Below, piece by piece: positions 1 to 40,993 of a stretch of DNA of 43,671 bases. Under the pieces are notes generated by a model, which did not search any database, was not told the DNA's origin, and worked only from the letters and a program-made list of their open reading frames with translations. Source of the stretch: Methylobacter sp. (GTDB lineage Bacteria > Pseudomonadota > Gammaproteobacteria > Methylococcales > Methylomonadaceae); assembly GCA_024636505.1 (NCBI GenBank), contig JAGXGY010000006.1:1-43671 (forward strand). The letters run 5' to 3'. Numbering within the stretch: the first letter of the stretch is position 1; each line of letters begins with the position of its first letter. The position numbers and the translations under genes were made by a program.

Positions 1-205
1 GTGAATGACTCCTACCTAAAGGAAGGAGCTTCCAGCTTCAACGGGGCGATGCTCGGCATAATGCGGAGTCTAAAGTCCCCTCGACTGGCAGTACCGGATA
101 TTCCCTCCGGCAGGCTGAATTATCAGCACGGGAAAAATCGTACACAGATGCAAAGGCAAAATCAAGAGCATTCTTATATCCCTGCCTAAAGTAAGGGGAA
201 TTACG
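1..205 (+). mobile_element. ORF-less HEARO/IscB-type (IS200/IS605-like) element
   Basis: The segment begins with GTGA and ATGA tetranucleotides (1-4, 5-8), directly followed by a hairpin at 9-28 (CTCCTACC, loop TAAA, GGAAGGAG). A related hairpin sits at 179-198, 170 bases downstream; 15 of 20 positions match, the TAAA loop is the same, and both stems carry a mismatch at the same internal position. Hairpins near both ends are typical of IS200/IS605-superfamily elements, and HEARO elements are known to insert after ATGA or GTGA. No IscB or transposase reading frame is present between the ends; the only candidate ATG there gives 13 codons. This is inferred to be a non-autonomous or decayed copy. 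The exact right boundary is uncertain. Confidence 0.5.
9..147 (+). ncRNA. HEARO-like RNA (omega-RNA scaffold of IscB)
   Basis: Several nested stems can be drawn by eye: the 9-28 hairpin; GGGG (43-46) with CCCC (77-80) enclosing a small CTC-G-GCA / TGC-G-GAG hairpin (about 52-68); a CCGGA / TCCGG hairpin (about 94-110); and a GCTGA / TCAGC hairpin (about 114-127). The stretch CAACGGGGCGATGC and the GTCCCC partner resemble the HEARO RNA as I remember it. HEARO RNA is the guide-carrying RNA of IscB nucleases and normally lies upstream of the iscB gene. Here the next gene is an aminopeptidase. No covariance-model search could be run, so family membership is a recognition call. Confidence 0.5.
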
Positions 206-238
206 GACTTTTTTCGTTAAAATTGATGCATGCAAACC

Positions 239-1183
239 ATGAAAACCCTTTACCCTGAAATTCTACCCTATCACCACTTTTTCCTGGAAACCGGCAGTAC
301 GCATACGCTTTATGTGGAGCAAAGCGGCAATCCTGAGGGCATTCCTGTTATTTTCCTGCACGGCGGTCCGTGTTCCGGGACCAAGCCCGATCATCGGCGT
401 TTTTTTAATCCCGAGCTGTATCGCATTATTCTATTCGATCAGCGCGGCTGCGGGCTGTCGCTGCCTTTTGGCGAACTGGAAAACAATACCACTCAGGATT
501 TGATCGATGATATGGAGCGCATCCGTAAACAGCTGGATATAGCGCAATGGCTGGTATTTGGCGGTTCTTGGGGCGGGGCATTGGCTTTGTTGTATGCTAA
601 TCAGCACGCCGACAAAGTACTTGGCTTGATTGTGCGTGCGGTGTTTCTGGCGCGACAGCAGGATTTGGACTGGTTTGCTCAAGACGGTGCCGCCAAGATT
701 TATCCTGAACAATGGCAACGGTTAATTGAAAGCATCCCGGAACAGGGGCGAGGGAATCCGGTGCAAGGCTTGTGCGATGTGATCTGGGGCGAAGACCAGG
801 TGGCGCAAAGGCGAGCCGCCAAGGAATGGATGGCCTGGGGTGCGCAGGTATCATTAGGTAACGATTATCAGTCGAGTCCAAAAGTCGAACATGCAACCAA
901 GCTTATGGTTAAGCAGGTAGCCATGGAATTGCATTATGCCAGACAGCATTATTTTATCAGGGAAAACCAGATTCTGGATAATTGTGGCGGTTTGGTTAAT
1001 ATACCAACGGTTATCATTCATGGACGCTATGACTTGGTGTGTCCGATTGAAGCCGGTTATAGTCTGCACAAAGCATTGCCGAATGCCGAATATATTGTTT
1101 TACCCAATGCCGGGCATATCGCTCAGGGTAAGGAAATGATTCATGCATTGGTTGCTGCAACCGATAGTTTTGCAGATCATTGA
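239..1183 (+). CDS. pip: Proline iminopeptidase
   Basis: Alpha/beta-hydrolase of peptidase family S33 that removes N-terminal proline from peptides in the cytoplasm. The oxyanion region HGGP is at about residue 41, the nucleophile elbow GGSWGG at about 108-113 (Ser about 110), the acid in GRYDLVCP (Asp about 265) and the base in NAGHIAQG (His about 293), so the triad is complete. The oxyanion loop reads HGGPCSG rather than the common HGGPGGG, a mild oddity. Length (314 residues) is normal. An ATG lies at both 230 and 239; 239 is preferred because family members usually begin close to M-x-T-L-Y-P. Neither start has a clear ribosome-binding site. It stands alone, just right of the HEARO-like element. 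Confidence 0.93.
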   Translation: MKTLYPEILPYHHFFLETGSTHTLYVEQSGNPEGIPVIFLHGGPCSGTKPDHRRFFNPELYRIILFDQRGCGLSLPFGELENNTTQDLIDDMERIRKQLDIAQWLVFGGSWGGALALLYANQHADKVLGLIVRAVFLARQQDLDWFAQDGAAKIYPEQWQRLIESIPEQGRGNPVQGLCDVIWGEDQVAQRRAAKEWMAWGAQVSLGNDYQSSPKVEHATKLMVKQVAMELHYARQHYFIRENQILDNCGGLVNIPTVIIHGRYDLVCPIEAGYSLHKALPNAEYIVLPNAGHIAQGKEMIHALVAATDSFADH

Positions 1184-12908: not shown

Positions 12909-13106
12909 GTAATCTCCTCAGGGTGTCTCAATGAACGGATATTTTAACTGAATGGCCGCCGCTGGGCTTGTGTCGGTTGCAAAAAAACTGTTTTAATAAG
13001 CTCGGCTCTCAAAACCATCTGTTTTATAAGGTATTAATTGTATCGGGACAGCGCTTCAGCTTGCAATCTGCGGCATTATCCTTTAACTTACGGCTACATC
13101 CGTAAA

Positions 13107-15128
<2,022 letters not shown>

Positions 15129-40828: not shown

Positions 40829-40830
40829 CC

Positions 40831-40993
40831 TGTAGCTCATGCGCTCAAATCCGTATGATAAAATTATCGCAACGGGTTTATGCGTGCGAATGCGGTTTAA
40901 CTATTGATCGCGACTTTAAACGCCGCGCGCAATATTAAAAGGGCTGGGTTAGTCCTGAGTGGAGCTGTATATCAACTTGGTAAGGCGGCATGA
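40831..40993 (+). pseudogene. TnpB (IS200/IS605) C-terminal remnant
   Basis: Directly after the polA stop, a forward frame reads the TnpB zinc ribbon: CSSC, then IRMIKLSQRVYACECGLTID ending in RD. One extra A at about 40918-40920 then breaks the frame; in the shifted frame the expected continuation DFNAARNIKRAGLVLSGAVY follows to a TGA at 40991. The CxxC...CxCG...DRDxNAA-N pattern is diagnostic of TnpB, the RNA-guided nuclease of IS605-type elements. All upstream catalytic domains are missing, and the first Cys pair begins two bases after polA. A hairpin-rich stretch (AACTGA...TCAGTT around CGCTC/GAGCG, about 41040-41078) may be what remains of its right end. Confidence 0.8.

Follow-up and report, generated by a model that had tools for sequence, protein, structure and literature searches.

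The first 216 nucleotides of the Methylobacter sp. DNA analysed here (a stretch of 43,671 nucleotides, referred to as the window) very probably form, on the minus strand, an internally deleted transposon of the IS200/IS605 (tnpB-only) type that has no protein, that is, a palindrome-associated transposable element (PATE), with its left end (LE) at position 216 and its right end (RE) at position 1. From the sequence comparisons given below, its membership in this family, i.e., PATEs derived from tnpB-only IS200/IS605 elements, is nearly certain. Judged by the same kind of evidence, positions 1–113 of the minus strand are a homolog of the omega-RNA (reRNA) scaffold of TnpB. An earlier note on this DNA had proposed a non-autonomous, protein-less mobile element that depends on proteins encoded elsewhere, and an OMEGA-type guide-RNA scaffold with its guide to the left of base 1. 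Both points are borne out, the former by dispersed copies, shared edges, and empty sites, and the latter by a scaffold that ends exactly at base 1.

The edges of the element are those common to its copies, and the corresponding site in relatives is uninterrupted; the unit of 1–205 described previously is a real and recurring one, though its true extent is 1–216. With its 216 nt, the element lacks the length to encode a transposase, and the two reading frames of at least 60 aa that overlap it gave no Pfam match at E ≤ 0.01. That neither iscB nor a transposase lies within the unit had been noted correctly. Plasmid and phage collections held no match to 1–216. Here, each end has a subterminal hairpin that we presume to be a TnpA site, and the two stem-loops are found where the earlier note placed them, with the TAAA loops and the pair changes that it pointed out. 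In the RE hairpin (8–29, minus strand), which is supported by its fold and by the covarying helix 3 and would also be the 3′ hairpin of the RNA, the pairs as written on the plus strand at 9–28 are C9–G28, T10–A27, C11–G26, C12–G25, T13–A24, C15–G22, and C16–G21, with A14 and A23 left unpaired. The LE hairpin (179–198, minus strand) has a weak fold in the window copy; its plus-strand pairs are T179–G198, C180–G197, C181–G196, C182–G195, T183–A194, and C186–G191, with G184 and A193 as well as C185 and T192 unpaired. The first of these mismatches does match the one in the RE hairpin in position, as had been observed, while the additional C185/T192 mismatch had been overlooked. Against shuffled sequences, the RE hairpin gave a z of −2.46 (4 of 200 fold as well) and the window copy of the LE hairpin a z of −0.46 (63 of 200 as good). 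At the RE itself, the terminal TTCAC of the minus strand is identical in all 31 right ends of our alignment A1, tnpB elements included. On the plus strand, the copies start with GTGAAT, one of them with GTGAAC, and a further copy (L057) lacks the first base and terminates in TTCAA on the minus strand. A reading of GTGA/ATGA as the target site was rejected, these bases being part of the transposon RE.

A search of the source genome (2.83 Mb, 69 contigs) with a 229-base query returned 23 full or partial matches. The good copies have both edges in common and lie in unrelated flanks, and this recurrence with fixed edges is more than chance would give. The far edge of most copies is near ..TTTACGGAC....TTAAA or ATAAA, and in two short copies from the same genome (on contigs C65 and C32) the LE is damaged or divergent. 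Directly outside the LE, positions 217–221 are host DNA and read TTTAA on the minus strand (TTAAA on the plus strand). The same place is taken by TTTAA (seven copies) or TTTAT (two copies) in all nine copies of the source genome whose LE flank can be seen, a constancy that resembles that of a target-adjacent motif (TAM), the role of which in cutting is a prediction. With the R1 model, matches were found in six of the 46 genomes searched (20, 18, 20, 3, 1, and 1 per genome). The 20 in the source genome were resolved by contig ends and flanks, with joins between contig ends inferred, into eight window-type loci (10 hits), three other short loci, and five tnpB-type right ends, the rest being one decayed tnpB and one other tnpB; for three of those five right ends, just the last 40 codons are visible before the contig ends. 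By this count, the source genome would have about 11 protein-less loci, the window element among them.

The window element begins where its contig begins. Over 141 bases from there, it agrees with the end of contig C16 without a single difference, and three further contig ends differ from it at one base. Given the uniqueness of this 141-base identity, together with synteny, contig C16 most likely provides the flank to the left of base 1 (..GCCGGGAAACAAA), which would supply the guide. As for other short elements, a second family in seven loci of relatives (L045, L047, L052, L056, L059, L061, and L062) has the same LE with another interior and right part (..GGACGACTCTGAAAATCGTCTTACTTCACGCCATCTC..GGAGATACGCAGCAACAGCG..), and two own-genome loci (L020 and L023), of which just the last part is seen, also belong to it. 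These combinations suggest that end modules may be exchanged between families of short elements. Separately, five short copies (L009, L010, L015, L021, and L043) contain, between their ends, an additional hairpin (GCTGATGGCGCTAGTCGCCCTAAGTCAGC or sequences very like it) that occurs with two different RNA cores and was not seen in the aligned tnpB right ends.

Downstream of the element is a gene for a pip-like alpha/beta hydrolase (230–1183, plus strand; the pip of the earlier note), the ATG of which, at 230, is 13 bases from the element's end. Such closeness would suit a domesticated host RNA or a fixed, immobile regulatory leader of pip. We regard this reading as very improbable, since among the pip loci of relatives (29 fetched, 21 compared) the element is present in none of the 21, and in six the C16 flank runs uninterrupted into the pip leader, thus representing the empty site; the remaining 15 have different or diverged DNA at this place. 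In one such empty junction, GGAAACAAA is joined directly to TCAAATTTGACG, while the occupied site here reads AAACAAA, then positions 1–216, and then TTAAAATTGATG. The copies at unrelated loci also speak against a leader, and with them and the empty sites the idea of a domesticated guide RNA, one of the options raised earlier, is largely refuted. A second insertion, the copy on contig C27, allowed the comparison to be repeated. In the source genome, an insert of 217 bases splits its flanks; of 40 relatives searched with the flanks joined, 21 gave a single match across the joint. In 12 loci that we read base by base, the site is empty in every one, three of them with gaps (1–3 bases) at the joint or close to it; in one locus (L268), the 30 guide-side bases shown plus TTAAA are identical to the source genome. 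Set against these empty sites, neither the pip nor the C27 junction has a target duplication. At the empty sites of relatives, TTTAA is present in six of 12 (C27) and one of six (pip). The earlier note had set its reading against a lack of any HEARO hit combined with a lack of any empty site; the HEARO hit is indeed absent, but empty sites exist.

The ends of the element lead to its parent. Reverse-complemented, tnpB 3′ ends from the same genome (L033 and L037) match window positions 1–44 at 80–82%, and the LE as a whole (160–216, minus strand) is related to sequence upstream of tnpB start codons at three loci (L016, L018, and L113) and, in more diverged form, at a fourth (L115). By these sequence likenesses, the element is homologous at both ends to the tnpB transposons of its genus. 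The near-terminal palindromes are IS605-like and shared with the tnpB elements, as the LE hairpin is held in common with L016, L018, L115, and L189, and the RE hairpin with L033, L037, L113, and L189. Moreover, L113, from a genome of the same genus, has a tnpB frame of 413 aa (396 aa from its ATG) with OrfB_IS605, TNB, and HTH Pfam domains, flanked by part of the element's LE at its 5′ edge, where the contig end cuts, and by the element's RE at its 3′ end. In a Nitrosomonas MAG (L189), tnpB lies between both kinds of end on one contig, as read by eye. In the source genome itself, tnpB is split by contig breaks: an N-terminal frame of 312 aa is on C9, C-terminal parts are on C7 and C49, and left ends leading into a tnpB start are on C1, C12, and C32; on C62, the LE is present and the tnpB start absent. 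In the reading frame of the tnpB C-terminus, the window element retains a remnant without stop codons (15–95, minus strand; GTASRGDFRLRIMPSIAPLKLEAPSFR, compared with tnpB C-termini GTANRGTVSQVRGRKPSV..), a likeness judged by eye. The window-type RNA core was absent from every tnpB gene fetched. As candidate sources of protein, the source genome gave seven hits to Y1 TnpA and 18 to TnpB, many of the latter partial; a scan of six of the seven Y1 loci with one loop motif found no TnpA with matching ends. Elsewhere in the window, between polA and the next gene (40829–40945, plus strand), we noticed a decayed fragment of another tnpB (CSSC..CECG..DRDF), whose TNB domain scored 23.6 bits, under the cut-off of 26.3.

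The element had been taken for a HEARO/IscB omega-RNA unit without iscB. A compact OMEGA-like RNA that adjoins a transposon end, with its guide to the left of base 1, would agree with this. IscB omega-RNAs occur without iscB in some genomes. Here, the Rfam search at gathering scores found no HEARO in the window, the sole Rfam match being a TPP riboswitch (13101–13218, plus strand, 64.8 bits), and an Rfam search of positions 1–400, which cover the region for which HEARO had been proposed, gave no HEARO match and nothing credible even at E ≤ 10. Two low scores in 1–400, for Yfr8 (13.3 bits) and L31 (12.7 bits), were taken as chance, the gathering scores being 40 and 36. Among five iscB loci in relatives, the HEARO model passed its cut-off of 83 at four (126.4, 103.2, 102.6, and 86.7 bits) and reached 42 at the remaining one, and three copies of the element run alongside these controls were without a match; it is on this difference that we set HEARO aside. 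There was no HEARO across the source genome or in 14 control genomes. The IscB RRXRR domain (PF14239) is absent from the source genome, though the search itself works, with a match in 22 of 151 genomes, many only stretches of 40–50 aa. Of the further copies, with and without iscB, that the earlier note advised looking for in the genome, the protein-less ones were found. Many relatives (L069–L082) have short frames that match just the first 40–50 positions of RRXRR, and those translated are short and free-standing. Conversely, our tnpB-based model R2 (see below) was weak at three of the five iscB loci (17.5 bits with E 0.0048, 9.7 bits, and 7.2 bits) and silent at two. With no RF02033 match, no iscB in the element, and both ends and RNA being those of tnpB elements on the opposite strand, the HEARO identity falls away and is now extremely improbable.

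For the RNA, we aligned 31 minus-strand right ends (A1), comprising 10 window-type copies, nine plus two other short copies, eight tnpB copies, and two others. They were drawn from 38, with C3, C16, C24, and C47 (right-end sequence the same as in kept copies), T_C14 (the same as T_C63), L057, and L126 omitted. The architecture that emerges is a 5′ hairpin with a GGGAAU loop (92–112, minus strand; helix 1), a long and imperfect central stem (CCAGU CGA GGGG / CCCC GUUG GCUGG) with an apical hairpin (32–88, minus strand; helix 2), and the end hairpin, the first two being also seen in the fold. In A1, 93.7% of cells are paired versus 85.3% in shuffles, and two-sided cells number 84 versus 28.0 ± 6.7, a value reached by none of 500 shuffles, in a control that takes no account of relatedness among the copies. 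Less striking is the count of pairs that show two-sided changes (10 versus 7.5 when shuffled; reached by 15 of 500 shuffles). When partners were slid by 1–3 columns, at most 52.6% of cells paired and at most eight were two-sided. Helix 2 is paired in 98.4% of cells, with two-sided changes in five of its 12 pairs, and helix 1 is weaker (85.4%). RNAalifold, unaided, returned the same helices, with two-sided changes in 10 of 26 pairs. A pseudoknot for the central helix was considered and rejected, this helix being nested in the computed folds.

The strand follows from the G–U pairs. Read as minus, 803 of 857 cells are paired and, read as plus, 695 of 857, so the RNA is assigned to the minus strand, which is the sense of tnpB; the intervening stems, read previously on the plus strand as resembling the IscB guide RNA, belong to the minus strand. 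While a plus-strand RNA is rejected on pairing, folding energy alone does not separate the strands: against shuffles, the window scaffold gave a z of −1.42 as minus (18 of 200 as good) and −1.29 as plus (20 of 200). The tnpB copy L033 and the copy L010 fold better, with three of 200 shuffles as good for each.

Homology of this scaffold to tnpB RNA was examined with a covariance model (R2) for which 20 tnpB 3′ ends, and none of the short copies, served as input; 12 of the 20 are labelled as cyanobacteria and one as Gracilibacteria. Of this input, 16 were among the best-scoring of 59 loci matched by R1 and four were of the genus, with the similar-scoring L197 and L232 left out, and the boundaries of R2 were derived partly from R1; this choice favours sequences like R1, which itself contains short copies. 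In R2, 16 of 25 pairs have two-sided changes. Its sole match in the window runs from 113 to 1 on the minus strand (65.9 bits, E 2.8e−13) and ends exactly at base 1, i.e., at the right edge, and all 24 short-copy loci that it was given matched, some of these being the two contig ends of one copy. In the other direction, R1 (short copies included) matched 59 of 80 tnpB loci at E ≤ 0.1. Thus, a 113-nt scaffold homologous to the RNA of tnpB 3′ ends, with a covariation-supported structure on the tnpB strand, has its 3′ end at base 1 (1–113, minus strand). At two cyanobacterial loci (L207:4786–4919 and L236:4843–4948, both minus strand), we also saw second RNA-model matches away from tnpB, possibly protein-less copies.

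Whether the scaffold is still of use is a separate matter. A passive version of our interpretation keeps the same TnpB-derived PATE and takes the scaffold as a fossil from which no functional guide RNA is made, its persistence owing to the young age of the copies or to the need of TnpA for the right end; this is a serious possibility, if somewhat short of an even one. It would fit with the window scaffold being barely better than its shuffles, as given above, with a promoter and terminator scan of the window copy that yielded nothing at threshold, and with the distribution of substitutions, as the stems of window-type copies are the richer in them (25 in 56 stem columns versus seven in 73 elsewhere). 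The corresponding stem and elsewhere counts are 42 and 30 in other short copies, and three and 23 in tnpB copies. Against a fossil, 15 of the 20 departures from the consensus pair in the 10 window-type copies still pair (two-sided changes account for five of these), and of the five breaks, three come from a single copy that has an indel in the stem concerned, the departures not being independent. Moreover, the scaffold inside the RE hairpin is retained in all 24 short-copy loci tested, and in nine other short copies 28 of 33 departures still pair. Taken together, this is suggestive only of constraint on the RNA fold in protein-less copies, since the copies share ancestry, segments may pass between them, and TnpA may be what holds the end hairpin. 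A candidate promoter on the element (TTGATT-17-TACGAT; 137–165, minus strand) is possible, if weak, and its RNA would start about 130 nt before base 1. A promoter-like pair with this 17-nt spacing is the best-scoring one in 19 of 19 copies examined, ties left aside, with eight of 12 matches in 16 copies and nine in three.

Returning to an element whose RNA may be active, the tnpB gene was very probably lost by internal deletion, with the LE, a possible weak promoter, the scaffold of about 113 nt, and the RE retained, and the element has inserted into the pip leader beside TTTAA without duplicating target bases. Single-strand transposition by Y1 TnpA leaves no target duplication. Movement in trans by a Y1 TnpA encoded elsewhere, through both end hairpins, would be the most likely mechanism. 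The minus-strand transcript would end in some 16–20 nt of flanking host DNA, i.e., the guide. In the available parts of two TnpB reports, TnpB uses RNA from the tnpB 3′ end plus the RE with about 16–20 nt of flanking DNA as guide, requires a TAM that is the insertion target on the LE side, and is proposed to restore the transposon by cutting the empty donor joint (PMC8612924, PMC10278001). Since the element has no tnpB, any nuclease must act in trans. TnpB encoded by one of the genome's tnpB copies could load the element's RNA and could, after excision, cut the empty site flanked by the motif, whereupon repair would restore the element. All parts required in cis lie within the 216 bases or next to them, if the uncertain promoter is counted, and we put the use of the element's RNA in trans by a resident TnpB at about an even chance. 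As a tentative extension, held with rather less than even confidence, the genome might contain a distributed set of trans-acting guide RNAs, in which about 11 protein-less elements, their guides fixed by insertion site, would be served by a few tnpB copies, and the window-type scaffold would be an independent mobile lineage of guide RNA, with its fold kept by compensatory changes and its own promoter.

If usable guide RNAs are indeed made, the guide RNAs of transposons could spread and evolve apart from their nuclease, with a single TnpB able to serve many elements that lack a protein. PATEs were known before the RNA-guided nature of TnpB, and OMEGA systems are related to CRISPR-Cas12; a testable link between such ends-only transposons and OMEGA systems would then follow. 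Protein-less copies are missed by gene annotation, and both strands are worth searching with RNA models of tnpB 3′ ends. In the literature that we searched, mostly open-access, we found no description of TnpB guide RNA coming from protein-less elements, and later work on TnpB may mention ends-only elements.

Among known systems, HEARO/IscB omega-RNA (RF02033) is likewise a transposon-linked guide RNA of compact stems, but differs in family, strand, and nuclease, with no covariance-model match here. A closer likeness is to TnpB reRNA, which, in the available parts of the two reports, is formed, as that of the window element would be, from the RE and the 3′ end of tnpB, takes its guide from the flank, goes with a TAM on the LE side, and has a scaffold of 106 nt in AmaTnpB versus about 113 nt here; those systems have tnpB in cis, whereas the window element is without it (PMC8612924, PMC10278001). 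The window-type scaffold is also 13 nt shorter, in its apical region, than that of tnpB copies. The 271-nt PATE-like sequence of Halanaerobium hydrogeniformans, described in the available part of its report as an LE hairpin, the last 58 nt of tnpB, and the whole RE, with no tnpA, has the same architecture as the window element, but is a single such sequence, compared with about 11 inferred loci, copies in sister genomes, and empty sites here (PMC7290912). The PATEs of Haloquadratum walsbyi, in the part of that report available, have near-terminal IS605-type palindromes and no target duplication, and are too short for a transposase; some types are more than 90% alike between copies, and some arose by deletion of the core (PMC3119063). 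Palindromes, absent duplication, short length, and several dispersed copies (here, the 23 matches) place the window element beside such PATEs, the first three being shared with those of H. walsbyi, though its host is a gammaproteobacterium of the methanotroph group rather than a haloarchaeon, and its interior is a covariation-supported guide-RNA scaffold of the TnpB type, a feature not discussed for the H. walsbyi PATEs in that available part (PMC3119063). What the evidence adds over the known PATEs is this retained interior, identified as a guide-RNA scaffold of TnpB whose fold and strand are conserved.
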